In this document: piece after piece, positions 8,295 to 63,814 of the stretch
Layout: each line of letters starts with the position of its first letter
How positions within the stretch are numbered: the first letter of the stretch is position 1
Made by a program: the position numbers and the translations under genes
The notes under the pieces: generated by a model
What the model saw: only the letters and a program-made list of their open reading frames with translations
Database searches by the model: none
Told to the model about the DNA's origin: nothing
Source: Austropuccinia psidii
Lineage: Eukaryota; Basidiomycota; Pucciniomycetes; Pucciniales; Sphaerophragmiaceae
NCBI GenBank assembly: GCA_023105745.1
Contig: JALGQZ010000013.1
Coordinates: forward strand, 4,623,501-4,687,500
Direction of reading: 5' to 3'
Length of the DNA stretch: 64,000 bases

Positions 8295-8463
8295 TTTTTG
8301 CACCATGAAAATTTGTGGGGAATGAGCAAAAAGGGCCCAGAAATTGATATGGAGTAGGGCGGTTATGAGGAATGTTTTGGGGGGCAAGGTGGACACAAGC
8401 ATAGCTTTATTTATATTTGAGAATCTTTGATTTTGCAAAAATAGAAGCCAATTATGCCCCTAT

Positions 8464-11006
8464 AGACTTCATTAAGATACAGGTTTTTCTGTATCTGAGT
8501 AGGTCTGATGAAATTCCCAAGAGACAGACCAATTACGGCCGTAATTGGATGGCAAGTGGTACAAATTATGACCAGTGGTCATAATTTGACAACCTGTGTA
8601 CAATTACAGCCAAAGCTGTATTGTTCCTGGACCTCATTCAGATACAGTTTTGTCTGTATCTGAATGGTTCTGATGGGATTTCAAGGAGACAAACCAATTA
8701 CGGCCGTAATTGGTTTGCAAGTGGTACAAATTATGACCACCGGTCATAATTTGACCACCTGTGTATGATTACAGCCAAAGCTTTATTGTCTCTGGACCTC
8801 ATTCAGATACAGAAAAAACTGTATCTGAATGGGTCTGATGAAATTCCCAAGAGACAAACCAATTACGGCCGTAATTGGTTTGCAAGTGGTACAAACTAAT
8901 TATGGCCATAATTTGTTTGCAAGTGGATCCAAATTATGACCGCCGGTCATAATTTAACCACCTGTATATGATTACATCCAAAGCTGTATTGTCTCTGGAC
9001 CTGATTCAGATACAGTTTTTTCTGTATCTGAATGGGTCTGATTAAATTTCCAGGAGACAAACCAATTACGGCCGTAATTGGTTTGCAAGTGGATCTAAAT
9101 TATGACCGCCGGTCATAATTTGACCACCTGTGTATGATTACAGCAAAAGCTTTATTGTCTCTGGACCTCATTCAGATACAGAAAAAACTGTATCTGAATG
9201 GGTCTGATGAAATTCCCAAGAGACAAACCAATTACGGCCGTAATTGGTTTGCAAGTGGGACAAATTATGACTGGCGGTCATAATTTGACCACCTGTTTAT
9301 GATTACAGCCAAAGCTGTATTGTCTCTGGACCTCATTAAGATACAGTTTTTTCTGTATCTGAATGGGTCTGATTGGATTTCAAGGAGACAAACCAATTAC
9401 GGCCGTAATTGGTTTGCAAGTGGTACAAACTATGCCTGGCGGTCATAATTTGACCACCTGTATATGATTACAGCCAAAGATGTATTGTCTCTGGACCTCA
9501 TTCAGATAAAGTTTCTTCTGTATCTGAATGGGTCTGATTGGATTTCCAGGAGAGAAACCAATTACGGCCATAATTGGTTTGCAAGTAGATCCAAATTATG
9601 ACCGCCAGTCATAAGTTGACCACCTGTGTATTATTACAGCCAAAGCTGTATTCTGACTGGACCTCATTCAGATACAGTTTTTCTGTATGTGAATGGGTCT
9701 GATTGGATTTCAAGGAGACCAACCAATTACGGCCGTAATTGGTTTGCAAGTGGTACAAACTAATTACGGCCGTAATTCGTTTGCAAGTGGATCCAAATTA
9801 TGACCACCGGTCATAATTTGACCACCTGTATATGATTACATCCAAAGCTGTATTGTCTCTGGACCTCATTCAGATACAGTTTTTTCTGTATCTGAATGGG
9901 TCTGATGAAATTCCCAAGAGACAAACCAATTACGGCCGTAATTGGTTTGCAAGTGGGACAAATTATGACCGGCGGTCATAATTTGACCACCTGTTTTGAT
10001 TACAGCCAAAGCTGTATTGTCTCTGGACCTCATTCAGATACAGTTTTTCCTGTATCTGAATGGGTCTGATTGGATTTCAAGGAGACAAACCAATTACGGC
10101 CGTAATTGGTTTGCAAGTGGTACAAACTAATTACGGCCGTAATTGGTTTGCAAGTGGTACAAATTATGACCGGCGGTCATAATTTGACCACCTATATATG
10201 ATTACAGCCAAAGCTGTATTCTCTCTGGACCTCATTCAGATACAGTTTTTTCTGTATCTGAATGGGTCTGATTAAATTTCCAGGAGATAAACCAATTACA
10301 GCCGTAATTGGTTTGCAAGTAGATCCAAATTATGACCACCTGTGTATTATTACAGCCAAAGCTGTATTCTGACTGGAACTTATTCAGATACAGTTTTTCT
10401 GTATCTGAATGGGTCTGATTGGATTTCAAGGAGGCCAACCAATTACGGCCGTAATTGGTTTGCAAGTGGTACAAATTATGACTGGCAATCATAATTTGAC
10501 CACCTATATATAATTACAGCCAAAGCTGTATTCTCTCTGGACCTCATTCAGATACAGTTTTTTCTGTATCTGAATGGGTCTGATCAAATTTCCAGGAGAC
10601 AAACCAATTACGCCCGTAATTGGTTTGCAAGTAGATCCAAATTATGACAGCCAGTCATAAGTTGACCACCTGTGTATTATTACAGCCAAAGCTGTATTCT
10701 GACTGGACCTAATTCAGATACAGTTTTTCTGTAGCTTAATGGGTCTGATTGGATTTCAAGGAGACCAACCAATTACGGCTGTAATTGGTTTGCAAGTGGT
10801 ACAAATTATGACCGGCAGTCATAATCAGACCACCTGTGTACAATTACAGCCAAAGCTGTATTTTCTCTGGACCTCATTCAGATACAGGTTTTTCTGTATC
10901 TGAATGGGTCTGATGAAATTCCCAAGAGACAAACCAATTACAGCCATAATTGGTTGGCAAGTGGTAGAAATTATGACTGGCAGTCATAATTTTACCACCT
11001 GTGTTC
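8464..11006. repeat. Array of fifteen ~165-bp units, three palindromes per unit
   Basis: Counting from the GGACCTCATT landmark, units start near 8464, 8629, 8794, 8997, 9163, 9328, 9493, 9659, 9861, 10025, 10227, 10375, 10539, 10705 and 10869. Most are 164-166 bp. Three are about 202 bp through an extra ~37-bp block repeating the middle palindrome, and one is 148 bp. Each unit has a hairpin with arms CATTCAGATACAG and CTGTATCTGAATG around a T-rich loop, a perfect 28-nt palindrome of half-site CAAACCAATTACGG, and a palindrome of half-site CAAATTATGACC with a 5-nt core spacer. Such subterminal arrays are where CACTA-type elements bind their own transposition proteins (general knowledge). Here the array ends 170 bp from the transposase start and 350 bp from the plus-strand gene, so it is also a shared upstream region. 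Confidence 0.9.
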
Positions 11007-11252
11007 ATCATTACTGGTGGGATAAATCTCTCACCCACCTATAGGTGTGACTTTACCATCCAATCTAATCACCCATGTAATTGAAGGATTATTCTAAATA
11101 TACACATTTCCTGACACTTAATCCTTCCCTAAATGTGTAATTGTGTTTTATGTGTAGAGGATCTGCAGCTTTCTTTTGATTGAAACCACAAAACTCATTT
11201 CTGCTCTATTTCTATGGGCTACAGCCCCACTTCATTTCATTGGGACCTGCAA

Positions 11253-26668: not shown

Positions 26669-28103
26669 TGTCAGCCTGTGACTCAAAACCAGAGCACAAG
26701 CATGACAGCCAAAATACCATAAACCAATGGTATAGCCAAAATACCACCAAAACATGGACCTGAGCCAAAGTAGCTCAAAAGGTATCAAAAGAAAGAGGAA
26801 AATCACTTCTTTCTGAAAATACAAGTCCCATCACCATAGGACAAGAAATAACAAAGTTATTCCTGCTCAAAGTCATTGCTGAGCATAAACCTTAATTTTC
26901 ACCTCTCATCTAAAATCTAGAAGGAGAGGCTTAACCCCATCAAATGGGTATTCAAAATGAAGCTCTAAGCCAGGGCTATCCAATGGTACCATCCAAACTG
27001 AGCTAGCACCAGTATTACTTGAGTTATGGTCAAATTCAGACCAAATAAGGGTGAACAAAACATTCACCTCTCATCTAACTTTTACAGTTTTAGTGTGAGA
27101 TACTTAAAGTGGGGTCTTTTTGGAAAGAGCACAATCAGGGCTATCTGATGGTGTCATCCATTTCCTCATATCTCAACTAGAACAGAAGTTATTGGCCAAA
27201 CAAGCTTAATACAGCTTTTGCCCAAACCACGCCAATGTATAAAAATACTTGTACATGGGATAACTTTGCCATATTTAATGATAACCATGTCAAGTTGGGT
27301 ACCATTGTGTAGAGCGCATACAGGGCTATTCAATGAACCAATGTTGATCTTGATATCTCAAAAACTGACAGAGTTATGACCATTTTAAGGTCAAAATCCC
27401 ACCTGCTGTCATATACAGCCTTACCATGGGATAACACCCTATAACCATGAATATGAGGTGTCAAATAGACAAAGAAGCATGTTTTTACTTCAATACCTCA
27501 TATGTCAGTCAATACTGGGGTCCCATACAGTTTCTGTACAGCATTCTACGCGTCATACACGTCAGAATCAGGCTGTGAGGTCCCCAGATGAAAATTTTCA
27601 CCCTGTATTGGTGAAAACTGCCCAGATGTGGTTTCAAAACCACATCTGAGCCCAATACAGTGTATACAGGCTGTTTGCAAACCACAAGCCTGTCATGAGG
27701 AGTGAAAAATCTTCACTTCCTCTACGTGGAAAGGTCTAACAGCCTTTTCACCTCAAATTCAGGATAAAAGGAGGGCTTTCCACTGCCAAAAACCTTTCCT
27801 CTCCTGCTCTTGAATACCCTACGTAGTAAACTGTCAAAAACAGTTTACCTCTTGGGTAATAACCAGGTATTATTATAATATCAATAATTGTAGTCTTTAT
27901 TATTGTAACTCAACAGGTAAAGCTGCACCCAGGGCTTTCAACAGCACTCACCACCACTATATCTACTATAGTAAAGCCCTCTTATTATTAAAATCACACC
28001 ATTTACAAATTTTTATCTTTTAAATCCTTATTTAACCGTGTCACAGTCATAATTTTAGTTGTAAATACTTTTATTACCACTTCAATATAGACTCAGCCTG
28101 ACA
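26669..28103 (+). repeat. E1 5' LTR
   Basis: Begins TGTCAGCCTGTGAC and ends AGCCTGACA, giving short terminal inverted repeats (TGTCAG/CTGACA). It matches 34915-36349 along its full 1435 bp with few substitutions and no length change. It contains promoter-type AT-rich stretches near the 3' end and should drive the element. The 63-codon frame at 27458 is present in both LTRs and is not considered a gene. Confidence 0.95.
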
Positions 28104-28106
28104 TTT

Positions 28107-28119
28107 TGGGGGCCTGGCC
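28107..28119 (+). promoter_or_regulatory. Candidate primer binding site of E1
   Basis: TGGGGGCCTGGCC begins four bases after the LTR. TGG would pair with the CCA end of a tRNA. Element B has the similar TGGGGGGCTGCC just after its 5' LTR. The tRNA partner is not identified. Confidence 0.5.
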
Positions 28120-28148
28120 GTGTTTTTTTGACTTTTTTGGACCTTACA

Positions 28149-29770
28149 AGTAAGTCTTTTTCTCTTTTTTATGCCTTATTAACACATTGTTTTATCTTTT
28201 TTAGGCGTAATTTCTATTTAAAAATATATTTTTTATATATATTTTTACCTTTTTTTTTATATACTCATATTATAAAGAGTATTTTTTACGTGGTTAACAC
28301 CCACAGTAATCTACTATTTTTGGTGTGTTTTGCATATAAAAACACATAAGCCACTAATAAAGTCCTGTATTCTTGACTGAATAAGGACACCTCTGACTGA
28401 AAAACCATCAGTTGAGGCATGGTCAAGTGTATTGTTAATTCAATAACACTTGTATACAAACCACTTATACAGAATACACTTGCAAACCACAAGTTTATCT
28501 GAGGGATACTGACACACAAACAGTGTGACAGGACACCATAAGCTGTATTTTTGACGTGAAATTGTTAATTCAATTACACTATCATTATACAAGGGCATAC
28601 TGTAATAATATACAAGCCCAGAGGCCATTCTTAGACGTGCAAAACCAGCCTTTTAAGAAGTCTTAACTGACATAAGCCCTCTTTTTCCTGTTTTGATTCA
28701 GTGGAAGAAAACTACATCCCACTTGAAACCCAGTCACAGGCCAACACACCAGTGACACCCTCAGAACCAGAGGGCAGCAAGGGTAAAGGAAAAAGGCTTA
28801 GTGAAGGCCTCATTACAGCCAAGAAGTGGACACCAATAGCCACTCAGAGGAGTAGAAAACCACGAAACTCTGCTTCAATACAAGGTAAACCAACCTTAAC
28901 CACTTGTACAGGGAAGATTACAATTATTAACCCAGTTGTAACTTCCAAAGGCAAACTGCCCAAAGCAGCAGATAACAAATTTGTACAAGGCACAGTCAAA
29001 GGTAAATACCCTAAGAACATAAAGTTTTTGACTGCTTGCAAACACTGATATGTCCCCTGCATACCTCAGAGACCTTGGCTTCCAAAGGAACCAGCCAGAG
29101 GATAGAGCAGGAATGTCTAGAACCAGAAGACCTGAAAGAAGACACATTGGACACAGTGGTGGATGGCAAGACAATGAGGGAGATAATATCAACCTTGCCA
29201 TTTACACTCCAATTCAACAGAAACCTCAAACCAGAGGACTGGAAGGATATGGATCAAGTTCTTCAAATCCACCAACTCCTCAAAGATTTGTTTCAATGGA
29301 GCATGGACAACAAGAGGTTCAACCTAGCAACTCACTGGGCAGAACTGGGATCAAGCTTCCAGAAGATCTGTCTCAAAGAGATAGACTTCAAAGACCTTAT
29401 GGTAATCACCAAGGGTTGGAATCCTACCAGGCAGCACAGACTCCTGGAGGCAAGGGCACAGAGGATAAGGGAGAATCAAGCCACTATCCAAGCTATAGAA
29501 GAACAGTTAACCCAGACAGGGCCTACTCAGATTCCTTCAGGTTCACAAGGAGCCAGCCAAATCAGCTCTCCAGTGGCTTCACACCATTCAGAAACCAGCA
29601 GATCAGTGGCCATGAGTCACCATTCTTCACAATTCCAGGAAGTTTCCAGGAGAAGACAAGGCAACAAGGGCAAGAACAAAGCCTCCTTCAACCAGAGGAG
29701 GAAAGAGTCAGACCCCATGATCCAGAAGCTGTTAGATTTGGTAAAAGAAGTACACAAGAACCAGAAGTAG
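28149..29770 (+). CDS. E1 ORF1, spliced, overlaps gag-pol
   Basis: Predicted exons: up to 28149, 28702-29001, and 29070-29770 (1002 nt, 333 residues). The leader intron 28150-28701 has a strong donor (AA|GTAAGT), a CTTAAC-type branch candidate and a pyrimidine-rich acceptor. It joins A to TGGAAG and so makes the ATG at the splice junction. Intron 29002-29069 joins KG to ETLASKG in phase. The product has a Pro/Lys-rich N-terminus, a helical middle (WSMDNK, GWNP at about residue 215) and a basic C-terminus ending KEVHKNQK. Element D encodes a 335-residue homologue by the same splices, and B and C have diverged versions with the same NGW[NH]P motif. Function unknown; its position suggests a Gag-side structural or regulatory protein. 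It shares 29070-29770 with gag-pol in another frame. Confidence 0.65.
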
Positions 29771-32700
29771 TTGTAAACCACTCTAGAATCAGTAGTCCTA
29801 GTAATAGAAACATTACCCCCACTCAGACTGAAAATAACATTATCACATCTGAGAGCAACATCAACAGTGACACACTGTGGTTGCAAATGTCCCAATATGC
29901 TGAGCAATCTGCAAAGCAGGCTGCAGAATTTGCAGCTGCCCAAGAGAGGATGAGACAAACTCAAGCCTCATTGGAGCAGATAGTTAAAAACCTTCAGGAA
30001 GGATATGCTCAACTGAGAAAAGCCTCTGAAGAAACCAACAAGAGACTGAATCAAGTCTCTGAAGAACAACACCATAGCAGCAGGGACAGGGAGTGTCTGA
30101 ACCAAGACATCAACAAATTGTTTGATGCCTACCATAGCTTAAAGCCCCAACCACAAAGCCAAGCTATGGAGAATCCATATCAACCAGATGCCAGGTTGTT
30201 GAATAAGGCAAGATCTCCATCACAATACCAGGATGGAGATGGCATGTCTTATTCAGAGAAGGAAGCCTTGAAACAGCTTCCTGAGGCCTCAAGCTGGCCC
30301 AAATTCTCTCGATCAGGAGAATATGATCATATGGAACTCATAGATTATATTGATGGACTCTTCATTGATGTACCAAGCATACCAGATTACTGGATTACTG
30401 CTAGAATGAATACTGCATTTAAAGTTCATGCAAGTATATGGTACACTGAAATGAAAGAAATCCATGGCAGAAGAAATTGGCCATGGTGGAAGAGTCAAAT
30501 AATCCAAAAGTACAGTAATGGAACTTGGATATGGCAAAAGACCATGTCATTTGAAAATGACAAATACTCTGTGGACAAAGATCCATATGAGTGGTGCCTT
30601 AGACAGTCTAAAAGACTTAAAGCCATTGATCCTCAAATGAACATTCAAATGAGGAATCATAAACTTCTGACACAACTGCCAGGAGAACTAGAGCATGCAG
30701 TAAAGTGCAGATGCAACCAAAATTGCACTCTAGATGATATAGCCAATACCTTACAAGACATAAGGAAAAGGACTAATATAGGGAAATTCACCCCATATAG
30801 AAGCAATAGTTTCAAAGAGAAACAACCTTTCAGGGTAGAGTTTAAAGACAAACCCAGAGAAAGAGGGGCAGAAGTGACAAAGAAGAAGAATTCTTGTCAC
30901 AATTGTGGTTCAACAGACCACTATGCCAACAACTGTCCAAAAGCAAAGAAGAAAGTCTATGCTATAGAAAAAGTCCCTGAAGAAGAACCTCCAACAGAGG
31001 ATTCTGAATCAGACTCTATGGGTGATGCCATCAGAGAACCATCTGATGAAGAGCAAGACCCAAGAGAGGAATTTCTAGTGGAATACCAAGAGGAAACCCC
31101 ACTAGAAATCCAGGATATACAGTTGGAAGCAGGCATGCCACAAGACACTGCCAACAAGAACTTGTGTAAACATACACAAGATGCACAAACATTCCTGGTT
31201 ACACCAACCAAAGGAATGGCATATATACATGGAACAGCCACAAAAATGACTGTATGTATTGACAATGCTCAGCACCCACTGATCATTGACAGTGGAGCAC
31301 ATTGCTCCATAGTGGCCAGAACTTATCTGGATAACCACTTCCCAAACTGGGAAAATCAGCTCTTGCCCACCAAGGCAAAGAACTTCAAAAGTGCATCAGG
31401 GAAGATGACTTCCATTGGGACAATTGTCAAAGAGATAATTATACCCCACAGGAAGGGTAATATTAGACTCAACCCAGAGTTTGTAGTGCTTGAAGATGCC
31501 CACATCCAAGGGTTTTTACTGGGAACAGATTACCAGAGGATGTATGGCATAGATATTTACAATAGTAAAAATAGGCATATTACCATTGGTACTAACAAGG
31601 AAAAGAAATTTTCTCTTGATATATACCAAATATCTTCTCAGGACCCACTGGAAGAACTTCTGAAAGAATTCAGAGAGGGACAGTTTAGCACTACCCTCAC
31701 CAGTAAACAAAAGCTAAGTTTACTGAAGATGCTGAGGAAGAATAGACCAGCATTTGCCATTGGTGAAGAACCATTAGGCAAGATCAAAGGCCATGATATA
31801 GAACTATATCTGGATGTAGAAAGGCCTTATCCACCCATGTTAAGGAGACCTCCTTACCCAGCAAGTCTGGAGACCAGGAAAGAGATTGAGAAACATATCA
31901 ATGAACTCCTGGACATGGATGTCATTAGGAAGATTGGACATAATGAAATAGTGGAAATCACCACTCCTGTCCTAATCACCTGGCATGATGGCAAGTCTAG
32001 ATTGTGTGGAGACTTCAGAGCCCTGAACAACTACACCAAAGCAGACAGGTACCCTATATCAAGGATACCTCATGCCTTGGATAAATTGGCCAAAGCCAAA
32101 TACATAACCAAGATGGATTGCATGAAGGGCTTCCACCAAAATGGAGTTAAACCAAACTCCATGAAATTACTCAGAATTATATGCCATATGGGCATATATG
32201 AGTACACCAGGATGCCATTTGGCATCAAGAATGCACCAGCCCACTTCCAAAGGATGATGGACACCATATTTCAAGAAGAAATAATGGAAGGCTGGATGGT
32301 AGTATATATTGATGATATCATTATATACTCAGAGACATGGGAAGATCATGTACAATACATAGACAGAGTGCTAAGTAAATGTAACCCCATCAATCTAAAA
32401 ATTTCACTTAAAAAGTGTAATTTTGGCCAACAAGAGCTACTAGCTCTAGGACACAAAGTCTCAGGCCTTAGTCTGGCAATTGACCAGAACAAAGTAGCAG
32501 CAGTACTGCAAAAGCCAGTACCAAAGAACATTAAAGAAATGCAATCTTTCCTTGGGTTTGCTAGCTACTATAGAAACCACATCAAAAACTTTGCCCACAT
32601 AACTAGTAGCTTATACAAGTTATGCTCAAAAGATGTAGTTTTTGAAATAACCAAGGAAAGGAGGGATGCATATGAGAGGATCAAACATGAACTCACAAAT

Positions 32701-34890
32701 GCACCTGTGCTCATCTTGCCTGACTTTGAACTACCATTCAAGTTATACATAGATGCAGCATGCAGCCAAGGCCTAGGAGCAGCCCTTCACCAAAGACAAA
32801 TTGTGGATGGTGAACCAAGAGAAGGTGTAATATGTTACATCTCCAGGCAGCTAAAAGATTCAGAAGCCAGGTATGGGGCCACCCAGACAGAATGTCTATG
32901 TCTAGTCTGGGCTCTAGAAAAACTCCATTATTATTTGGAGGGTGCAGTCTTTGAAGTCTACACAGACTGCACAGCCTTGAAATCTTTACTAAACATGAAG
33001 ACTACTAATAGACATATGCTGAGATGGCAAATAGCCACCCAGGAGTATAGAGGGAACATGACCATCATATACAAGGAAGGTAAAAGCCATACCAATGCAG
33101 ATGGCCTCAGCAGATGGCCACTGGACAATGTCAAAAGCAATCCAGCTTATGACCCTGAAGTTGCTGCAAAAATTCCTATCCATTTTATGGAAATTAATAG
33201 GAAAAAGAACTTCAGATTCTCTGAATGGGCACCAGGGAGTGGTACCCTTGACAGTGGAAACACTGATTCAGAAGGGACAGAAACTCCCATACTGGGAATA
33301 AGTTCCTCAGAACTGCACAATGAATTTTTCAATGCAGTACTGAAATCTTATGCTAAAAACAAACAGTGTAGCATACTACTCCAACTCCTTCAACAAAAAT
33401 ACAGGAGCCCAGAGCTGGAAACCCAGCTGGAGGAACCCTGGTTGAGGGCCTATAAGGACAATAAATTCTTCCTTATAGATGGCCTGATTTATCACAGAGA
33501 GAAGCACACCAGTGCACTCACAGTGATAGACAGAGACCACATCTCTTTAATCCTGCAGGAATGCCATGACTGCCCCTATATGGGACACATGAGTGAAGAC
33601 AGGACTAAAGAGAGGGTAGCAAGCACAGCTTGGTGGCCCAAGTGGGAGCAAGATTTGAGTGAATACATCAACACTTGTGAAAGATGCCAAAAGGCAAACA
33701 GAAAACATGGGAAGAAATATGGGTTACTTCAACATATAGAAGAACCCAAGCACCCATGGGAAACCATCAACATGGACTGGGTTACAGGACTTGTCCCAGG
33801 AGGCAAAGAAAACTACAATGCCTGTCTAATTATAGTTGATAGGTTCAGCAAGAGCATGAGGTGTCTACCATGCCATAAAGAAGACACAGCCATGGACACT
33901 GCTCTGTTATTTTGGAATAACATCATATCCACCTGTGGAGTCCCAAAGATCATAATTAGTGAAAGGGACCCAAAATTCACATCTGAATTTTGGACCAACT
34001 TATATGACATGCTTGGCACCAAGCTTGCCTTTTCCACAGCTTACCATCCCCAAACAGATGGCCTAGCTGAGAGGATGATCCAAACAATGGAGGACATCCT
34101 CAGAAGGTTCTGTGCCTATGGAATGGAATACAAGGACCATGAGGGATACACCCATGATTGGGTTACCCTCTTACCAGCAGTCCAACTGGCTTATAACACA
34201 AGCCAGCACTCTACCACAGGAAAAACACCTGCACTGGTAGAGAAAGGGTGGAATCCCCTGTTACCTGTGGATCACCTGAAGAAAAATCTTCTGACAATCC
34301 ACCCCACAGCCAAAGACTTCCATGATATGTGGAAGAAAGCCTGTGATACTGCAGCCAAATGCATAGCTGAGGCCAAAGAGTATAACAAGCAGAGGTGGGA
34401 CAAATCACATATGGAACCTGACTTCAAGGAAGGGGACCAGGTCTTAGTGTCTACACTGAACTTTAGTAATCTCAAAGGACCTAAGAAAATGAGAGACTCA
34501 TTTGTAGGGCCCTTCACTATCATTAAGTTGATAGGGAAGAATGCAGTAGAAGTCAAGCTCACTGAGGAGTTTTCTAGGAAACACCGAGTCTTTCCAGTGA
34601 GCCTGGTCAAACCATACTTCCAGACAGGGGAGGATAAATTCCCCTCCAGGAAGAAGAATACCACTCCACCAGAAATAGTGGAAGTAGAAGACTCTCCTGG
34701 ACCTGTGAGTAAAATCATCAGGGCCAGAAAAATCAGACTTAATGGAAAGGATCAAAGACAATACGTAGTCAGATTCAAAAACCAGACAGCTGATAAGGAC
34801 AAATGGTTGGCAGAGGATGCCATACCAGATGGGAACCTTCATTTAAGGAGATTCAGAGCCTCTAGGAGGACTGAACAGTCTCATCAATGA
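29050..34890 (+). CDS. E1 Gag-Pol polyprotein
   Basis: One open frame of 1946 residues from ATG 29050, which lies inside ORF1 intron 2. Residues 1-240 overlap ORF1 and are Gln/Ser/Arg-rich. A coiled-coil-like stretch lies at about 275-345 and a capsid-like helical region with [21 protein letters not shown] at 416-570. The CCHC knuckle is C616-C619-H624-C629, and the aspartic protease has DSG at 747-749. Reverse transcriptase has YIDD at 1086-1089 and RNase H has Asp at about 1235 with YTDC near 1303. The integrase zinc region is at about 1497-1546, with catalytic positions D1576, E1638 and E1674; the last two are exactly 35 residues apart as in DD35E, but 1638 is Glu, not Asp. A chromo-like tail lies at about 1875-1935. 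How it is translated relative to ORF1 is open: intron retention, reinitiation (the read-through exon stops at 29046-29048) or frameshifting. Confidence 0.92.
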
Positions 34891-34914: not shown

Positions 34915-36349
34915 TGTCAGCCTGTGACTCAAAACCAGAGCACAAGCATGACAGCCAAAATACCATAAACCAATGGTATAGCCAAAATACCACCAAAACA
35001 TGGACCTGAGCCAAATTAGCTCAAAAGGTATCAAAAGAAAGAGGAAACTCACCTCTTTCTGAAAATACAAGTCCCATCACCATAGGACAAGAAATAACAA
35101 AGTTATTCCTGCTCAAAGTCATTGCTGAGCATAAACCTTAATTTTCACCTCTCATCTAAAATCTAGAAGGAGAGGCTTAACCCCATCAAATGGGTATTCA
35201 AAATGAAGCTCTAAGCCAGGGCTATCCAATGGTACCATCCAAACTGAGCTAGCACCAGTATTACTTGAGTTATGGTCAAATTCAGACCAAATAAGGGTGA
35301 ACAAAACATTCACCTCTCATCTAACTTTTACAGTTTTAGTGTGAGATACTTAAAGTGGGGTCTTTTTGGAAAGAGCACAATCAGGGCTATCTGATGGTGT
35401 CATCCATTTCCTCATATCTCAACTAGAACAGAAGTTATTGGCCAAACAAGCTTAATACAGCTTTTGCCCAAACCACGCCAATGTATAAAAATACTTGTAC
35501 ATGGGATAACTTTGCCATATTTAATGATAACCATGTCAAGTTGGGTACCATTGTGTAGAGCGCATACAGGGCTATTCAATGAACCAACTTTGAGCTTGAT
35601 ATCTCAAAAACTGACAGAGTTATGACCATTTTAAGGTCAAAATCCCACCTGCTGTCATATACAGCCTTACCATGGGATAACACCCTATAACCATGAATAT
35701 GAGGTGTCAAATAGACAAAGAAGCATGTTTTTACTTCAATACCTCATATGTCAGTCAATACTGGGGTCCCATACAGTTTCTGTACAGCATTCTATGCGTC
35801 ATACACGTCAGAATCAGGCTGTGAGGTCCCCAGATGAAAATTTTCACCCTGTATTGGTGAAAACTGCCCAGATGTGGTTTCAAAACCACATCTGAGCCCA
35901 ATACAGTGTATACAGGCTGTTTGCAAAGCACAAGCCTGTCATAGAGAGTGAAAAATCTTCACTTCCTCTACGTGGAAAGGTCTAACAGCCTTTTCACCTC
36001 AAATTCAGGATAAATAGAGGGCTTTCCACTGCCAAAAACCTTTCCTCTCCTGCTCTTGAATACCCTACGTAGTAAACTGTCAAAAACAGTTTTACTCTTG
36101 GGTAATAACCAGGTATTATTATAATATCAATAATTTTAGTCTTTATTATTGTAACTCAACAGGTAAAGCTGCACCCAGGGCTTTCAACAGCGCTCACCAC
36201 CACTATATCTACTATAGTAAAGCCCTCTTATTATTAAAATCACACCATTTACAAATTTTTATATTTTAAATCCTTATTTAACCGTGTCACAGTCATAATT
36301 TTAGTTGTAAATACTTTTATTACCACTTCAATATAGACTCAGCCTGACA
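34915..36349 (+). repeat. E1 3' LTR
   Basis: 1435 bp, same length as the 5' LTR. Visible substitutions include AAG/AAT near the start, ACGCG/ATGCG near 35795, and clustered changes near 35587-35596. It is followed by GTATG, the target repeat. Confidence 0.95.
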
Positions 36350-36351
36350 GT

Positions 36352-37083
36352 ATGGTGAGAAGATTTTGTGCATATGGCCTTGAATTTAAGAATAATGATG
36401 GTTTCACCCATGATTGGTGTACTCTTCTACCTGAACTGGAACTGGCATACAATACATCCATTCATGCCAGTACCAATGAGACTCCTGCTATTTTGGAAAA
36501 AGGATGGAATCCCAAATTACTCCAAGATTCTTTAAGAAAGGATTTGGTTGAAAGAAATCCTACAGCTGCCAGCTTCAAAGGAATGCTAGACAGAAAAGAA
36601 AGAATGCAGTAAGATGCATGGAAGACTTATTTGCATATGCTAAGGATAAATGGGACAAATCCCATGCCACTCCAGATTTCAAGGTAGGGGATTTAGTACT
36701 AATCTCCACCACCAACTTCACTAACATCAAAGGATGTAAAAGCTCAAAGACTCATTTTCAGGACCTTTTGTTATTAAAGCCCTCCATGGAGAATATGCTG
36801 TTGAAGTAGAATTATCTGAGGAACTTAGTAATAAGCATCCTACATTTACAGTGAGCTTGGTGAAGGCATATCAATCTAGTGTGGCTGAAAAATTCCCCTT
36901 AAGGAATAAAGTTCCCCAAGTTGTACCTTCTATTGTGACATCTGGTACTAAGAAGATTACCAAAGTTCTTAAAGAAAGAAAATTAAGAACCAAGAAAGTA
37001 AGGGAATACCAAGTTAGGTACAGTGACCCAACTTGTGAAGATGAATGGTTAGAAGAAAAAGATATACCAGAAGCTGCCTAACT
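36352..37083 (+). pseudogene. Remnant A: integrase C-terminus and chromo-like tail
   Basis: Starts in the integrase just after the catalytic Glu region (VRRFCAYGLEF) and continues through THDWCTLLPELELAYNTS and EKGWNP. It then carries the basic SHATPDFKVGDLVLIS segment and the tail VREYQVRYSDPTCEDEWLEEKDIP, stopping at 37081-37083. Frame changes lie near 36590 and 36740. It is closer to the C/B family than to E1. Homology begins at the E1 target repeat, so everything upstream in this element is missing from the window. Confidence 0.8.
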
Positions 37084-38971: not shown

Positions 38972-40515
38972 AATACCATAAAAAAGACAAAAATTCTTAT
39001 TTATCTCAGAAACCAATGAGAAAAAATGTGGAATAAACTGTACCATTGGATTCCCATGAAATGATACATATACAGAATTTTTTCATTATATTTGTGAAGT
39101 CAATATTCAAGCAAATAACCTGAATATATGCACTTTTATGATCAGTGCATATACTCAGGGTTTTTACCTCATATCTCTTAAACACAAATTATTGAGAGTT
39201 AAACAAACAAAAAGATACCATGTAATTACTGTAGGAGCACAGATATTAGATTTTATTTGACAAGTTGCACCCAAGGTTATAGCATGTAAGGGTTTATTGA
39301 ATAAAATTGCAATAGCTGTTGACCACTTTGTTGTGAAAGTGGTCCAACCTTAAAATAAAGTGGATATTCAGGTTCTAATATCTCATAAGTAAGGAATTAT
39401 GTATTTTGTATCATTACATTCAAGGTAAAACCCCTTGAAATCATGGCTTGAAGTTTGAAATAGTGAATTTTGACAGGAAAGATGAGTTACAAGGAAAATC
39501 ATCAAAAAGAGAGTTTTGATGACCTAGTTGAATGCTATTGGAAATTTAATTATGACATGATAAGATATCACAAATCACTCTCTGATTGGCTGTAGCACAT
39601 ATAAGCTTAAAATTGATCATTTATGATCACTCACTGTAATCTTATTTTAAGCTTAACAGTTATATAAGTGATAAAATTGGTGAATAGTGATAACTCTAAA
39701 TAATGGAATAATAATTAGATAAGATGGTTTAATTATGATTTAATCATCACTAAACCTTGAATTACTCATTTATTCCAGTAGATACCAGCAGTACACGTCT
39801 ACTAGAGGCCTGTTGGACTCTAGGAAGGAAGATTTAACTATAAATAGAGCTCTTTTTACTGTATTTTGCCCTCAGATGCATCAAAAACAATACATTAGCA
39901 AAACCAAAGGTAAAGGATTTCTTGTCTTTATATAAAGCTATCATATATTCAAAGAATAAAGGTCATATTTTTTATAATCATCAATTTTGATGTGAGTAAA
40001 TCAATTTTTAATTGTTTTTTGTTAAATTTCTCTAAAATATCTAATTCCACATAAAAACAAGAAAAGTTGTAATTTGTTTTAATTTTTATTTTAAATACAA
40101 TTCAAATAAGTTTTATTTATATTTTTTGGCATGGAATTATTCAAAATTATTAAATTAAGTGTTAAAAGTAGGTTATCTTCTCTCCTATATTTTTTTTTTC
40201 AATAATTCTTAAATTAATATGAATAGTGTTTATATTAATTCATAATGTTAATGTTGGTAATACTACTGCTATAATTGTTTTTTTATTATTAAAAAACAAT
40301 TTCTTATGCCTTTATTATTTGTTTGTAACAATAATAAAGTTCCATAAACATACCAATATATTTATTTTATTATATTTATTTAGGATATAAGTATTTTAAA
40401 CTGTAATTATAATAATTATTTTTTATCTTATTCTTTAAATTTCATAAGGACATTCAGAGTAAAATAAGTAAAATATTAGTAATTTTTACTTATTTTTTCA
40501 TAGTCAAACCTTACA
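38972..40515 (+). repeat. Element B 5' LTR, truncated
   Basis: Matches 48025-49743 with substitutions and an ~85-bp indel. Shared landmarks include TTTATCTCAGAAACCAATG, the GATCAGTGCATAT block, GATACCAGCAGTA and the end TCAAACCTTACA. The first ~230 bp of the LTR are absent and replaced by remnant A, which suggests A inserted into this LTR. Confidence 0.8.
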
Positions 40516-40981
40516 CTTGGGGGGCTGCCAATATATTTACTTCAAAGACCTTTAAGCAAGATTCAAATTGGGTTCATCCAGTATTAAATTATATAATACC
40601 TTTATATTTATTGATTTTTAGAGCTATTGAGGAATTTGGAAAGCAATTATACTGCCTTACACATGGTTTTTCACATCCTTAGACTCGCAAGAACTTTCTT
40701 TGCGTGACTATAGTGATTAAAAAAAGATATTTATAAATTAAAAATAAATTTATATTATCAATCAATTTTGAGAGAATCATCTTAATTTTATTTTATCCTT
40801 TGCAAATCAAAATATAAAAAATAATAAAAAATAAAAAACCAATAAAAAAGTTATTTTTATTCTTTTTCACTCATTTCTTTTATTCATTTTATTCATTCAA
40901 AGGAATTTTTCTGTGGAAATTTCCATATTTTATCAAAAAAATACTTTTAGAAAAAAGACTTATATTTATTTGTTGTTTTAG

Positions 40982-47792: not shown

Positions 47793-49743
47793 TGAGCCTT
47801 TGAGATATCAACAAATATTCAAAATGGCCATAAGAAAGCTTTACAATAATTATTCTTTAAAAAAAATTATCTTCAAGTAAGTGGAAATGCCATAAATAGG
47901 CATAAGTTCTTAATTAACTTAGAATCTAATGGGTAAATATGTGAAACAAATTATGCTTTCATATTGTTCATGATAAAATACACATATATCATTTTTATGG
48001 CATATCTGTAAAGTCAATAATCAATGAATAATAAGTAAGAATAAAATAAAAAGAAAATGAATTCCAATTTATCTCAGAAACCAATGAAAAAGCAGGTAAA
48101 ACAAATTGTACCATTGGATTACTCATGAAAAAAGACACATATAACACTTTTTGTCATATTTGTAAAGTCAATATTTAAGGAAATAACTTGACTATATGCA
48201 CTTTCATGATCAGTGCATATATTCATGGTTTTTGGCTCATATCTCTTAAATCACACATGATACAGAGTTAAACCACTGATAACTTTACCATTTAATTAAT
48301 GTGGGAGCACAGATATAAGCTTTATTTGACAAGTTACAAACAATGTTATAAATTGTAAGGGTTTATTAAATAAAATTGCTATAGCTGTTGACCAATTTGT
48401 TGTGAGACTGGTCCAAACTTAAAATAAAGTGGATATTGAGGTTCTACTAGCTCATAAGTAAATAATGATGTATTTTGTATCATTATATTCAATGTAAACT
48501 CTTTTAAATTATTGTTTGAAGTTTAAAATAGTGAATTTTGACAGAAAAGATGAGTTATAAGAAAAATAATCAAAATGGATTTTTGATTAGGTAATGAGAT
48601 TCTCTTGGAAGTTTAATTATGAAATTTTAAGCTATAAGAAATAACTCTCTGATTGGCTGTAGTGTGTATAACCTAAAAGTCATTAATGATCAAAGTTCAA
48701 GCTTAAAATTGATCATTTATGATCACTCACTGTAATATTATTTTAGGTTTAAAAGCTATATACGTAATAAAACTGGTGAATACTATTTGATTATGATTAA
48801 CACTGATAAACTTCACTAAGGTTAGGCTTCTTCCAAGCCTCTGATGTCATTAAACTTAGAATTATAGTGATAACTCTAAATAATGGCGTAATAATGAGAT
48901 AAGATGGTTCAATTATGAGGTAATCATCACTAAACCTTAAAATAATGATCAATTACGGTGGATACCAGCAGTAAACATGTACTAGAGGCCTTTTGGAGTC
49001 TAGGAGGGGAGATTTTACGATAAATAGAGCTCTTTTCACTCTATTTTGCCCTCAGATGCAACAAAAACAATAAACTATTAAACCCAAAGGTAAAAGATTT
49101 CTTCTTTTTATATAAAAGAAGCATATATTCAAATACTCAAGTTCATCTTTGTTATAATCATCAATTTTGACGTGATTAAACCAATTTTTAATTGTTTTTT
49201 GTTGAATTTATCTAAAATTCCTAATTCCATGTAAAAACAAGAAAATTTGTAATTTCTTTTAATTTTTATTGGAAATACAATTTAAAGAAGTTGTATTTAT
49301 ATTTTTTGGCCTAAACGTATTCAAAATTATTATATTAAGTGTTTAAAGTAGGTTATTTTCTCTCTATTATTATTTTTCAAATAATACTTAAATTAATATG
49401 AATAGCATTTATAATAATTCATAACTTTGATATTAGGAATATTATTGTTATAATTGTTTTTTATTATTAAACAGATTTTTTTATGCGGTTAGTATTTTTT
49501 TGTAACAATAATAAAGTGCCATGAATATATTAATATATTTATTTTATTACATTAATATTTTTAATATATATTTTATATTATTATATTTATTAAATAATAG
49601 AAGTTTTTTATTCCATAATTATACTAATTTTTTATTATTATAACTATCTTTCATCTTATTCTTTAAGTTTCATAAGGACATTCAGAGTAGATTACATAAA
49701 ATATTAGTAATTTTTACTTATTTTTTCATAGTCAAACCTTACA
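47793..49743 (+). repeat. Element B 3' LTR
   Basis: Begins TGAGCCTTTGAG after the purine tract GGTGGGAGGGAA and ends TCAAACCTTACA, 1951 bp. It contains an internal imperfect repeat (GTAAAGTCAATA blocks near 48010 and 48165). Confidence 0.75.
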
Positions 49744-57578: not shown

Positions 57579-60500
57579 TCATTGATGAGACTCTTCAGCC
57601 CTCCTGGAGGCTCTGAATCTTCTGAGGTGTATTTGTCCATCTGGGATTTCTTTTTCAGTTAACCATTTGTCTTTATCTGCTGGTTGATTCTTAAATCTAA
57701 CCAGGTATTGCCTGTTGTCTTTCCCATTAATTCTTATTTTCCTGGCTTTAATGATCTTTTTCACTGGTGCAGGTGAGTCATCCTCCTCTACCAATCTTTA
57801 ATGGGTGACTGTTTTCTTTCTATCAGGGAATTTCTCCTCATCTGTCTGGTGATAAGGTTTGACCAGGCTCACAGGGAAAACTGGGTGTTTCCTAGAGAAC
57901 TCTTTGGTCAGGTTGACTTCTACTGCATTCTTTCCTATTAATTTAATAATGGTGAATGGTCCTATGAATGAGTCTCTCATCTTCTTGGGTCCTCTTAGGT
58001 TGTTGAAGTTAAGAGTTGAGATTAGAACTTGGTCTCCTTCTTTGAAATCAGGTTCTTGGTGACTTTTATCATATCTTTGTTTGTTATATAATTTGGCTTC
58101 AGCCACACATTGCTCTGCTTTTTCACAGGCAGTCTTCCACATTGTGTGGAAGTCCTTAGCTGTGGGGTGTACTGAGAGGAGGTTCTTCTTCAAGTAGTCT
58201 ACTGGAAGTAGTGGGTTCCATCCTTTCTCTAATGTGGCAGGGGCTTTTCCTGTCACTGAGTGTATACTTGTGTTGTATGCCAATTGTAAAGCTGGTAGGA
58301 GGGTTACCCAGTCATGGGTGTATCCCTCATTGTCTTTATATTCCATGCCATATGCACAAAACCTTCTAATGATGTCCTCTAATGTTTGGATCATTCTTTC
58401 TGCTAGACCATCTGTTTGTGGATGGTAAGCTGTGGAGAATGCTAGTTTGGTTCCCAGCATCTCATATAGATTAGTCCAAAATTCTGATGTGAATTTAGGG
58501 TCTCTGTCACTAATTATAACTCTTGGGACTCCACAGTTTGCTATCACATTGTTCCAGAACAATATGGCTGTGTCCATTGCTGTGTCCTCTTTGTGACAGG
58601 GGAGACATCTGACACTCTTGCTGTACCTGTCTACTACCACTAGGCATGCATTAAAGCTGTCTTTCCCTCCAGGGACCAGGCCTGTTACCCAATCCATGCT
58701 TATTATTTCCCAGGGGTGTTTGGGCTCCTCTATACTCTGGAGTAATCCATATCTTTTGCCATGACTTCTGTTGGCTTTCTGGCATCTGGTACAAGTGTTG
58801 ATGTATTCACTCAAGTCTTGTTCCCACTTTGGCCACCAAGCTGTGCTAAAGACTCTTTCTTTAGTTCTTTCTTCACTCATATGTCCCATGTATGGGAAGT
58901 CATGGCATTCCTGTAGTATCAGGGAAATATGCTCTCTATTTATTATTACCAGGGCACTTGTGTGTTTTTCCCTATGGTATAGTAGGTCATCTATCAGGAA
59001 AGATCTATTCTCTCTGAAGTTTTTGAGCCATGGTTCTTCCAATTGGCTTTCTAGTTCAGGACTCCTGTACTTTTGTTTTAATAGTTGTATCAATATACTA
59101 CACTGTTTGTGTTTATTGTATGCTGATTGTACTATGCTAAAGAACTCTGTATTCAGATTAGAGGAGCTGATTCCCAGTATGGGTATCTCTTTGCTCTCTC
59201 CAAAGCTCTGTGCTGGGCTTGATGGATCATTCCCTAATTCCCAGTTTGATAGTTTGAAGTTCTTTCTCTTATCTATCTCCATGCATTGTATGGGTATTTT
59301 GGCCCCATTTTCTGGGTCATATGCTGGATTTTCTTGGTCATTTTTCAGTGGCCACCTGCTGAGGCCATCTGCATTAGTATGACTTTTCCCTTCTTTATAG
59401 ATGATAGTCATATTCCCTCTATATTCTTGTATGGCTATTTGCCACCTAAGCATGTGTCTGTTTGTTGTCTTCATGTTCAACAGTGATTTGAGGGCTGTGC
59501 AATCAGTAAAAACTTCAAATACTGCTCCTTATAAGTAGTAATGGAGTTTCTCTAATGCCCATACCAAACAGAGACATTCTGTCTGAGTAGCTCCATATCT
59601 GGCTTCTGAGTCTCTCAGCTGTCTTGATATATAGAAAATTACTCCTTCTTTGGGTATTCCATCCACTAGTTGCCTCTGGTGTAGTGCTGCTCCTAGCCCT
59701 TGGCTACATGCTGCATCTATATATAGTTTGAATGGTAGTTCAAAATCAGGCATCATCAGGACAGGGGCATTGGTCAGTTCATATTTGATCTTCTCAAATG
59801 CATCCCTTCTTTCTTTGGTGATTTCAAAGACTACATCTTTTGAGCACAGTTTGTATAGGCTACTAGTGATGTGTGCAAAGTTTTTTATGTGGCTTCTGTA
59901 GTAACTAGCAAAGCCCAAAAAAAGATTGCATTTACTTAATGTTATTTGGTACTGGTTTCTTCAGTACTGCAGCAACTTTATTTTGGTCTATAGCTAGACT
60001 CAAACCTGAAACTTTGTGTCCTAGGGCTAGCAGTTCTTGCTGTCCAAAGTTACATTTTTTGAGAGATATCTTCATGTTGATTGGTGTACATTTTCCCAAT
60101 ATTTTATCAATTTTCCTCACATGGTCTTCCCATGTTTCTGAGTATATTATGATATCATCAATGTACACTACCATCCACCCTTCCATTATTTCATCTTGAA
60201 ATATGGTATCCATCATCCTCTGAAAATGGGCTGGTGCATTCTGAATGCCAAATGGCATTCTAGTATATTCATATATGCCCATATGGCATATAATTCTTAG
60301 CCATTTGATGGAATCTGGTTTCACCCCATTCTGGTGGAAACCTTTCATGCAATCCATTTTTGTAATAAACTTGGCTTTTGCTAGGTTATCTAGTGCATGT
60401 GGTATCCTTGGGATGGGGTACCTGTCCGCTTTGGTGTAATTATTCAAAGCCCTGAAGTCACCACATAGTCTGGATTTACCATCATGCCAAGTTATAAGGA

Positions 60501-63441
60501 CTGGTGTAGTGATCTCTACTATCTCATTATGTCCTATTTTTCTTATTACCCCCATTTCTAGGAGTTCATTGATATGTTTCTCAATTTCTTCCCTAGTTTC
60601 CATGCTGGCTGGGTATGGTGGTCTCCTAAGCATAGGTGGATATGGTCTTTCTACATCCAGATATAATGCTATATCATGTCCTTTGATTTTTCCTAGTGGT
60701 TCATCTCCTATTGCAAAAGCTTCTCTATGTTTTCTCAATACTTTCAGTAAGTTGAGTTTCATTTTACTGCTGAGTTGAGTGCCATATTGAGCTTCTCTGA
60801 ATTCTTCCACTAGTTCTTTCAAAGTGTTATCATTTGTCACATGATTTATATCAAAGGGAAATTTTTTGTCTTTGTTTGTACCTATGGTAAGATATCTGTT
60901 TTTACTATTGCAAATATCCATGCCATACATTCTTTGGTACTCTGTACCTAGTAAGAATCCTTGTACATGTGCATTTTCTAGAACTACAAATTCAGGTTCC
61001 AGTCTGATATTTCCTTTTTGGTGTGGGATAATTATCTCTTTGATTATTTTCCCCAGTGAGTGCATTTTTCCTGATGCACTTTTAAAGTTTCTAGCTTTTG
61101 TTGGGATTATCTCTTCTTCCCATTTGGGGAAGTGTTGTTTCAAGTATTCTTTTGCCACTATGGAGCAACTTGCTCCTGTGTCAATGATCATTGGGTGTTT
61201 ACAGTTCTCAATATAAACTGTCAATTTTGTGGGTGTTCCATGAATGAATCCCATCCCTCTATTTGGGGTTACCAGGAATGTTTGTGCATTCTGTGTGTGC
61301 TTACAGAGCTCTTTGTCTGTTTTTATTTGTGGTATTCCTGAATCCAATTCAATGTCTTGTATGTCAAGTGAACTTTCTTCATTGCATTCCACTATGTATT
61401 CTTCTATGGTATCAGGTTCACTTTGTGATTCTGCTCTCATACCATTTCCCATGCTGTCAGAATCATATTTTTCACCTGTTTGTTCTTCTTCTGACTCTTC
61501 ATCAATTGCATATATTTTCTTTTTTGGTTTTGTGCAATTTTTGGCATAGTGGTCTGGTGATCCACAGTTGTGGCACACATATTTCTTTTTTGGGGTTTCT
61601 TTCCCCTTCTCTTTGTTTGTCTCTTTAACTTCAGACCTCTTGTCTTTAAAGTTTGGTTTATAGGATGTGTACCTTCCTATGGAGGTTTTTTTTCTCACAT
61701 CTTGTATGACATTTGCTATGTCATCAATGCTGCTGATGTTGTTGCATCTGCATTTGACTGCATGTTCTAGATCTCCTGGCAATTTTGTTAGGAGTTTATG
61801 GTTTCTCATTTCTATTGTCATATTGGGATCAATAGCTTTTAGCCTCTTTGTTTGTTTGAGGCACCATTCATAAGGGTCTTTTTCTGTGGAGTATCTATCA
61901 CTTTCAAAGGACATGGTCTTTTGCCAGATCCAACTACCATTGCTATACTTTTGTATAATCTGGTTCCTCCACCATGGCCAGCTTTTTCTGCCATTTATTT
62001 CTTTCATTTCAGTATACCATATGTTTGCATGGCCTCTGAATGCTGTGTTAAGTCTTGTTGTGATCCAGTAGTCTGGTATCTTTGGGACATCAACAAAGAG
62101 TCCATCAATATAGTCAATGATCTCCATATGGTCATATTCCCCAATTCCTGAGAACTTTGGCCAGTTTGCTACTTCTGGTAACTGTTTTAGTGCCTGTTTC
62201 TCTGAATAGTTGAGATTTTCCCCATCTTGGTACACTGACTCTGATCTTAACTTTGGAATCTGATATTCAGGTTCCTGGTCATAGTCTTTATCCTCTTCTT
62301 TCAATTTTGTAGAGGTAGTAGGTTGACCTTGTGTTGGAGGGTATTGATTGTCTTCCCTGTCATAAAGGTAATCAATTTCTTTGTCAAAGTTATCCTGTTG
62401 CTTCTGGATACTCCTCAGATCCCTCCTCACAGTTTGTTGTTCTTCTAGAATTGAATTCAACTGTCTGTTAGTTTTTTCAAATTCTGTCCAAATTTTGGCC
62501 AGATTTGTATTTAAGTCTTTTATGACTGTTGCTTGGAAAGCACTTTCTTCTTTCAATGTTTCCACTTCTGTCCTCAATTTTCCTGAGGTTTCATGTTTCC
62601 AATCCATGAATTGGGCCAATTTGGTCCATGTGAATTTGTTTTCAAACTCATGAGTATGGATTGTAGTTTCAGTTATTAATTCTGGGTCTATTGAGTCAGA
62701 ACTATCAAAACTATTTGTAGGTACAACTATTTCTTGCTTTTGTGTACTTCTTGGACTAAGTCCATCAGCTTTTTCATCAATGGGTCTGCTTCTTTCTTCC
62801 TCTGGTTGAAAGAAGTCTTGTTTTTCCCTTGGGCTCCTTTTCTCCTGTTGGAAACTACCTGGAAGGGTTGGGGAGCCTTGGATGAAGTTTCCTTTGGCTT
62901 GTAGGGCCTGGAACTGCTGGATTGTTGTGGGGAAGATGGGACTTCTCCTTCCATTTCTGGGGGTACCTGAATCTGACTGGGCTCTTCCTTGTGCCAAGAT
63001 CTCTCTATGGCTTGTATGGCTGCCTGGTTCTCTTTTATTCTGGTTGCTCTTTCTTCTAAGAGTTTGAAATTCTTGTTGGGATTCCAACCTTGCATTTCTG
63101 TCATAAGTTCCATCCAAGCCATTTGCTTGAGACAGATCTTCTGGGTTGTTATCCCTACTTCTGCCCATGATGCTGCCATAGTGAACATTTTGTTGTCCAT
63201 GCTCCATGTGAAGAGGTCTCTCAGGAGTTTTTGTATTTGGAGGACCTGTTCTGCATCTGTCCAATCTCCTGGTTGGACTTCTGGGTTGAATTTGATCTGG
63301 AACAAGACCTTGGGTAGGAGTTCCCTGATGGTAAGTCCTTTGCTGGTCATTTGCTCCAGTTCTTCTGCCTCTGTGTCTTCTTGGCCAGTGTTCTGGTTGA
63401 TTTCTTGGGAATCCAAGATCTCTAAGAAGTGGAGGTGTCAT
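57579..63441 (-). pseudogene. Element D Gag-Pol, four lesions
   Basis: Homologous to E1 throughout. Landmarks: ATG 63441 (MTPPLLRDLGF), capsid-like [23 protein letters not shown], knuckle CHNCGSPDHYAKNC (about 61570), protease DTGA (about 61180), YIDD (about 60155), RNase H, and integrase with MDWVTG and [10 protein letters not shown], which has Asp at the position where E1 has Glu. Then GLAERMIQ and a chromo-like tail ending at 57579. Lesions: TAA 59932-59934 where E1 has Glu, an extra base in the run at 59917-59923, TAA 59529-59531, and a stop at 57798-57800. The first about 230 codons overlap ORF1. Confidence 0.9.
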
Positions 63442-63814
63442 GTTAACAATGTTAAAAAATGACAGACAATAAAAAATGCTGTATTTTTCAAGGTTTATTT
63501 ACCTTTAGCAGGCCCTTGTACAAATTTATGGTCTATACTCTTTGGCAATTTGCCTTTAGAGCTTACAACTGGGTTGATAACAGTGATTTTCTGTTTCTCA
63601 ATCTGTTTTGGTGATCCAAATGGTTTTGTTGGAGCTTTTCTGGGTTTTTTGGCCCTTGGCACGGCTATTGGTGTCCAATCTTTTGAGTTGATTGTCACTT
63701 CACTGTGTCTTTTCTGCTTGCCCTTGGTTTTTGGCAGCACCTCTCTGTCTTCTGAGGCTGTCACAGATGGATTTCCTTGTGACTGGGTTTCTAGTGGAAT
63801 GTAGTCTTTTTCCA
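62727..63814 (-). CDS. Element D ORF1, spliced, overlaps gag-pol
   Basis: Exon 63814-63503 starts at an acceptor (GAATAG|TGGAAAAAG), as in E1, so its ATG would again be completed by a leader splice whose donor lies outside the window. Intron 63422-63502 (81 bp, GTAAAT..TAG) joins KG to EILDSQE in phase. The second exon ends at 62727. With the missing A the product has 335 residues, 333 in E1. Shared blocks: [14 protein letters not shown][TS]SKGKLPK, KFVQG, WSMDNK, GWNP, QAAIQAIE, KNK[AT]SFNQR, KEVHK. The frame is intact although gag-pol in the same element is broken. Function unknown. Confidence 0.65.

Follow-up and report, generated by a model that had tools for sequence, protein, structure and literature searches.

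Two Ty3/gypsy elements with a shared layout

The window analysed here, a 64,000-nucleotide (nt) stretch of contig JALGQZ010000013.1 (positions 4,623,501 to 4,687,500) from the rust fungus Austropuccinia psidii, contains two diverged elements, E1 and E2, in which splicing appears to decide which of two overlapping open reading frames (ORFs) receives a start codon. The published genome of this species slightly exceeds 1 Gb, with more than 90% transposable elements and gypsy elements dominant among them (PMC8063080). Judged from its sequence, E1 is a complete Ty3/gypsy long terminal repeat (LTR) retrotransposon insertion on the plus strand, bounded by two LTRs of 1,435 nt each (5' LTR, 26669..28103; 3' LTR, 34915..36349) that are 98.6% identical in a BLAST match of one against the other. 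The pentanucleotide GTATG stands at both outer ends as a 5-bp target-site duplication, so that the LTR pair and the duplication expected of an LTR element are both present. Sequence inspection places a TATA-like GGATAAAAGG at 27762 inside the 5' LTR, and TTTTGGGGGCCTGGCCGTG, which is also found in the E2-type copy L010, directly follows that LTR where a primer-binding site is expected. The gag-pol ORF (29050..34890, plus strand) encodes 1,946 amino acids (aa), with reverse transcriptase, RNase H and integrase domains in that order in a single pol frame: RVT_1 at residues 981-1137, RT_RNaseH at 1225-1333, Integrase_H2C2 at 1494-1551 and the integrase core rve at 1568-1667. The rve match (27.6 bits) lies under its Pfam cut-off of 32.6, and a zf-CCHC match at residues 615-631 (19.6 bits) lies slightly under its cut-off of 20.8. 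E1 itself apparently sits within the coding part of another retroelement, as the sequence past its 3' LTR (36350-36800) resembles, on inspection, the end of an integrase.

Ahead of gag-pol, and partly on top of it, lies a second gene, ORF1, which on the plus strand is divided among three exons. Exon 1, the leader past the LTR (28104..28149), has as its last base the A that opens the ORF1 start codon; removal of intron 1 (28150..28701, 552 nt, GT..AG) makes that codon as A/TG, the slash marking the splice site, in the context ACAATGG. Position 28149, the first base of the span singled out by a reading of the letters alone (hereafter the sequence-only reading), is thus the first base of an ATG that the splicing of intron 1 completes. 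Exon 2 (28702..29001) contains no ATG in any frame and belongs to the leader when the RNA is unspliced. It is followed by intron 2 (29002..29069, 68 nt, GT..AG), which holds the gag-pol start codon (29050..29052), with 20 nt from 29050 to the end of the intron at 29069. The coordinates of intron 2 and of the gag-pol ATG, already proposed by the sequence-only reading, all hold. A stop beginning at 29029 precedes this ATG in the gag frame, making 29050 the first ATG of the frame. Exon 3 (29070..29770) lies wholly within gag-pol in a different frame, with an overlap of 233 codons, so that ORF1 and the first 240 codons of gag-pol share about 700 nt in which both frames are open. When intron 2 is retained, the exon 2 frame of E1 runs into a TGA at 29046-29048, one base ahead of the gag-pol ATG, as had been predicted; of 20 E1-type copies sampled in addition to E1, 17 share this adjoining TGA.

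The resulting ORF1 protein has 333 aa, or 311 aa if a segment within exon 2, X (28885..28950, plus strand), is spliced out as an optional in-frame intron. X is a 66-nt GT..AG piece that resembles an exitron, its loss shortening ORF1 by 22 aa. A conserved peptide encoded by X was considered and set aside: only its second half is similar between E1 and E2, and the proportions of synonymous and nonsynonymous differences over 21 codons are 0.51 (pS) and 0.36 (pN). Some public A. psidii gene models (P0002, P0003 and P0004) already carry the intron 2 join.

E2 lies on the minus strand, where positions 63814-62727 repeat the E1 layout of ORF1, intron 2 and gag ATG. Its ORF1 exon 2 (63503..63814) is followed by an 81-nt intron 2 (63422..63502) that contains the gag-pol ATG at 63441, and then by ORF1 exon 3 (62727..63421), which overlaps the gag frame. 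Gag and the first portion of pol are open over 1,169 aa (59932..63441, all coordinates on the minus strand), and the rest of pol is split over several ORFs. The two elements are 76-80% identical across three gag-pol blocks and about 45% identical in ORF1, as measured by a tblastn alignment that crosses the intron. Unlike in E1, the exon 2 frame of E2 stops right after the donor site (63497), 53 nt ahead of the ATG. Of 24 E2-type copies for which this stretch could be located, 22 have an exon 1 that ends in A ahead of a GT donor, again yielding A/TG; the commonest forms are ACTAACA/GTAAGT and ACTAAAA/GTGAGT. The gag-pol ATG lies exactly 20 nt upstream of the intron 2 AG in 28 of 30 E1-type and 28 of 30 E2-type copies (56/60, all picked by ORF1 similarity; the remaining four failed the search expression). 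This layout is not common to all gypsy elements here, an idea that we rejected on L105 and L106, one copy each from two other families, in which the gag ORF has no overlapping ORF of at least 100 aa.

Joined copies in the genome

Retroelements multiply by copying their RNA, and any that has been spliced may be preserved in the genome as a copy without introns. A search of the whole genome, allowing up to three mismatches, found the joined sequence of exons 2 and 3 of E1 at 18 places (6 exact, 4 with one mismatch, 5 with two and 3 with three), and its reversed control at none. The junction 29001/29070, which the sequence-only reading had predicted as the point where splicing removes the gag-pol start and connects exon 2 to the rest of ORF1, thus exists as joined DNA. 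The unspliced E1-type boundary of intron 2 occurs at 7,860 places, and the joined form amounts to about 0.23%.

The joined copies differ in what they have lost. Intron 2 alone is missing in 8 of the 18 (L071, L073, L074, L076, L079, L081, L085 and L086), X and intron 2 in two (L072 and L083), and intron 1, X and intron 2 together in the other eight (L069, L070, L075, L077, L078, L080, L082 and L084); X is accordingly absent from 10 of the 18, and the end of exon 1 is joined to 28702 in 8 of the 18. In these triple-spliced copies the losses align to the predicted GT..AG sites, LTR-end sequence precedes exon 1, and the intron 1 join reads AATGGAAGA, which creates the A/TG start codon of ORF1. 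The exon 1-exon 2 join was found at five genomic places, every one of them among the eight. The X join occurs at 14 places, six of which belong to the set of 18; among the other eight, L058 was the one read, and it has lost X while keeping introns 1 and 2.

When the spliced label was placed on a 31-row tree, it required 10 changes (gains or losses), with five of them forced by well-supported branches. A lost intron is very unlikely to return to its former site, so these changes indicate that spliced copies arose repeatedly. Taken together, the 18 joined copies are best explained as reverse-transcribed spliced RNA. The eight fully spliced copies lack the gag-pol ATG and were therefore probably copied using proteins of other elements.

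The two frames and the leader

Openness of both frames over about 700 nt, as claimed by the sequence-only reading, was borne out and is far from what chance would give. When the overlap was redrawn synonymously with the ORF1 protein fixed (2,000 draws per element, codon usage taken from outside the overlap), the gag frame was expected to contain 15.2 stops in E1 and 15.0 in E2; none is observed in either, and 0 of the 2,000 draws were free of gag stops in E1 and in E2 alike. Permuting the overlap's own codons lowered the expectation to 8.6 and 7.0 stops, respectively, and still none of 2,000 draws reached zero. In the converse redraw, with the gag protein fixed, ORF1 stayed open in 0.05% (E1) and 0.3% (E2) of cases; this test is the weaker one, with ORF1 open in 38% (E1) and 7% (E2) when gag codons were just permuted. 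A comparison of E1 with E2 over the overlap finds differences at 79/229, 72/230 and 112/230 sites at the first, second and third ORF1 codon positions, respectively, the third position being the most divergent. Simple estimates that ignore double coding give nonsynonymous and synonymous divergences (dN and dS) of 0.41 and 1.53 for exon 3 in the ORF1 frame, and of 0.49 and 0.56 in the gag frame.

Variation among copies was assessed in 30 copies not selected by either frame, plus E1, by comparing shared variants (present in at least two copies), taken as older, with singletons. ORF1-synonymous changes make up 67 of 176 shared variants versus 61 of 271 singletons (p 0.0003), an excess seen in the unspliced (p 0.021) and the spliced (p 0.00013) copies. 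Stops in the gag frame make up a smaller share of shared variants than of singletons (3/176 versus 16/271, p 0.024). Six of the 20 boundary-chosen copies, being interrupted or misaligned, were left out (L107, L109, L112, L115, L121 and L125), as were two of the 18 spliced copies with insertions or deletions (L078 and L079). Because it includes the interrupted and misaligned rows, a count on all 20 boundary-chosen rows (ORF1 p 2.7e-6, gag p 0.70) cannot be relied on. Single-nucleotide polymorphism counts from copies picked by ORF1 similarity, and stop counts of 9/150 and 1/150 rows with a stop, are biased and were not used as evidence.

The leader that precedes the gag-pol ATG on unspliced RNA is poor in ATG. 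In E1, the 940 nt that separate the LTR from the gag ATG contain two ATGs, for a first-order Markov mean of 11.3, and each opens a short ORF, one of 3 codons and the other of 27; the stretch from 27700 to 28170 contains no ATG either. The E2-type copy L010 has no ATG in 1,222 nt (the Markov model gives 19.9 on average and at least 6 in each of 300 draws), and eight E2-type leaders, of which that of E2 in the window is the first, contain 0, 0, 1, 1, 2, 1, 1 and 0. Counted from the end of the LTR, two ATGs thus precede that of gag-pol in E1 and none does so in E2. Such a leader suits ribosome scanning, which on unspliced RNA would run from the cap to the gag-pol ATG.

Several results weigh against a splicing switch between ORF1 and gag-pol. 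Within the overlap no constraint on gag amino acids was detected (gag-synonymous changes in 40/176 shared variants versus 62/271 singletons, p 0.56), shared variants are not depleted in ORF1 stops (6/176 versus 13/271, p 0.32), and singletons in the unspliced set are unevenly spread over codon positions (p 0.014). The 24 E1-type leaders contain 0 to 4 ATGs each and E1 itself retains two upstream ATGs, while the Markov null is crude, given that TAG too is scarce in the E1 leader (5 versus 16 expected). The absence of ATG from exon 2 is no evidence alone (p 0.27 in E1 with the protein kept; the E2 protein permits none). Moreover, the two E2 joins were found at no genomic place (up to three mismatches, genome-wide); this absence is only weak counter-evidence, since the 1,108 unspliced E2 boundaries would, at the E1 rate, predict about 2.5 joined copies. 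Splicing in E2 is suggested by the layout that it has in common with E1. On balance, the redraw and variant tests indicate that ORF1 is under selection as a protein and that the gag extension over ORF1 is selected mainly to remain open. The sequence-only reading would have been undermined by one frame evolving neutrally while the other was constrained, and this pattern holds by half: gag amino acids show no detectable constraint, yet gag stops are avoided.

Splicing as a probable choice between start codons

We consider it very probable that E1 and E2 are Ty3/gypsy elements that make two proteins from one RNA stretch through incomplete or regulated splicing. On unspliced RNA the ORF1 start would not exist, and scanning ribosomes would arrive at the gag-pol ATG within intron 2, in E1 behind the two short upstream ORFs; this RNA would double as the genome for copying and as gag-pol mRNA. 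Removal of introns 1 and 2 would supply a new first ATG for ORF1 and eliminate that of gag-pol, so that exon 3 would be read in the other frame as part of a basic ORF1 protein of 333 aa, or 311 aa without X. The sequence-only reading had seen the switch in intron 2, whose removal does take away the gag-pol ATG, but the account was incomplete, since splicing of intron 1 also creates the ORF1 ATG. For E1-type copies the support is visible in DNA: exact joins, their recurrence, two open frames, constraint on ORF1 and an ATG-poor leader. From these features we infer that spliced RNA gave rise to the joins, that gag-pol is translated from the unspliced form and that the element produces both proteins.

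Other explanations account for part of these observations. That the joined copies are chance DNA deletions is scarcely credible, because segments of 552, 66 and 68 nt are gone at GT..AG sites, jointly or partly, in several sub-lineages, and eight copies are continuous from the LTR end through exon 1 into exon 2. Gag-pol might instead be reached by a -1 frameshift out of ORF1 on spliced RNA, without use of its own ATG; the frame relation is right and ORF1 terminates inside gag-pol, yet a frameshift requires an open gag frame only past the shift site and the frame is open from the ATG onward, which makes this route very improbable. The gag-pol protein could also begin downstream of the overlap, leaving the open gag frame across ORF1 as an accident. 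The lack of detected amino-acid constraint on that frame would agree with such a start, as would the composition of the gag extension, whose fraction of disorder-promoting residues (0.64 in E1 and 0.63 in E2) compares with 0.55 and 0.59 for ORF1. However, the absence of some 15 expected stops in two diverged elements, the rarity of gag stops among shared variants and the identical position of the ATG in E1 and E2 render a downstream start quite improbable.

A further alternative keeps the gag-pol ATG and changes how ribosomes get there: an RNA without intron 1 but with intron 2 would be translated through exon 2, and the ribosome would restart at the adjoining gag-pol ATG. The TGA one base ahead of that ATG in E1, kept in 17 of the 20 sampled copies, is what such a restart would call for. 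This adjacency, which the sequence-only reading had pointed out in E1, does not extend to E2, where the stop is just past the donor and 53 nt from the ATG; as the arrangement is absent there, stop-and-restart as a general rule was set aside, and an adjoining stop is not required for the switch. All five exon 1-exon 2 joins also lack intron 2, so that the RNA form needed is unseen among them (five being few), and the ATG-poor unspliced leader fits plain scanning. Restart as the way to gag-pol therefore seems unlikely, and the choice of start codon by splicing remains our preferred reading.

Splicing chooses between overlapping frames on one RNA in influenza (M1/M2) and HIV (tat/rev); these are not fungal retrotransposons, and we note the likeness without suggesting homology. 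Ogre elements of legumes have an extra ORF ahead of gag, and to our knowledge their intron lies at a different place, with no start codon reported inside it. The nearest precedent for the E1/E2 arrangement is Cer1, a Ty3/gypsy element of Caenorhabditis elegans. In Cer1, unspliced RNA is the GAG-POL mRNA and a spliced mRNA makes CERV, which uses in its exon 4 a frame other than gag, has no obvious homology beyond nematodes and is required if unspliced RNA is to be exported (PMC10309623). The sequence-only reading, which knew of no described gypsy element using splicing in this way, was therefore too strong, as one exon of the spliced CERV mRNA of Cer1 already departs from the gag frame. In both systems an extra protein comes from a spliced mRNA in a non-gag frame, seen here from DNA alone in the joined copies and the open ORF1. 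However, a CERV-type protein starts out in the gag frame and finishes in an ORF located past pol, and ORF1 does neither: it is found at the 5' end, splicing makes its start codon, the gag ATG is intronic and no part of exon 3 (233 codons) is read in the gag frame.

More generally, splicing in LTR elements is already known from BARE1, EVADE, Ogre and env messages (PMC3735527, PMC12786077), with alternative splicing yielding a Gag-only mRNA in the Ty1/copia elements BARE1 of barley and EVADE of Arabidopsis, and an intron spliced between ORFs in the Ty3/gypsy element Ogre. As in BARE1 and EVADE, alternative splicing here would alter which protein results from an LTR element; by contrast, those elements have no second long protein in an overlapping frame, whereas the joined form of E1 lacks the gag ATG and so gives no truncated Gag, and joined genomic copies exist. 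A search of open-licence papers found no description of an E1/E2-type element, and the available portions of two rust papers (PMC8063080, PMC12210899) do not mention ORF1 or its splicing. What appears to be new, in that we did not find it described, is the combination of one splice-made and one splice-removed start codon over a 700-nt two-frame region in a fungal gypsy element.

The ORF1 protein itself resembles little that is known. No ORF1 match exceeded a Pfam cut-off and none of 46 ORF1 sequences matched at E 0.01; the lone weak match, to DUF4726 (E 0.028), is under its cut-off. An AlphaFold model of exon 3 has low confidence (mean predicted local distance difference test score, pLDDT, 58), and this low-confidence model found no fold match in the PDB. 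The proteins are basic, with isoelectric points of 9.6 (E1) and 9.5 (E2), and each shows basic clusters and a stretch resembling a nuclear export signal, which means little alone. In protein searches, relatives of ORF1 were all from A. psidii MF-1 among the matches listed (in two of the listings, the best 120 of 701 and the best 120 of 586), so that relatives in other rusts may exist beyond them. About two hundred 'hypothetical proteins' of A. psidii MF-1 (P0001-P0211) resemble ORF1.

HIV Rev helps intron-containing RNA leave the nucleus. By analogy with Rev and CERV, our first and tentative guess is that ORF1 may be a regulatory factor aiding nuclear exit of the intron-containing genomic RNA; a silencing suppressor, a chaperone and a packaging aid are other candidate roles. 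Rather doubtful, though conceivable, is an early/late programme as in complex retroviruses, in which fully spliced RNA would first give ORF1 as a nuclear RNA-binding factor, and this factor would then allow unspliced RNA to exit for gag-pol and particles.

Other repeats in the window are a tandem array at 8436-11023, with a unit spacing of about 165 nt (203 nt in places) and 60-94% similarity, and several direct repeats about 9.1 kb apart and mostly 85-90% alike (38972-40518 and 47885-49746), which are perhaps the LTRs of another old element.

The 7,860 unspliced boundaries of E1 type mark this arrangement as a very successful one in a gigabase rust genome. The ORF1-like hypothetical proteins mean that gene counts for A. 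psidii include transposon proteins. Because the element copies its own RNA, the genome's DNA records splice forms, which opens splicing in an obligate parasite to study from DNA. If our reading is true, E1 and E2 would be a clear instance of LTR retrotransposons in which splicing switches the start codon across a long two-frame region; and should ORF1 have a role in export, an analogue of Rev or CERV would have arisen separately in fungi.
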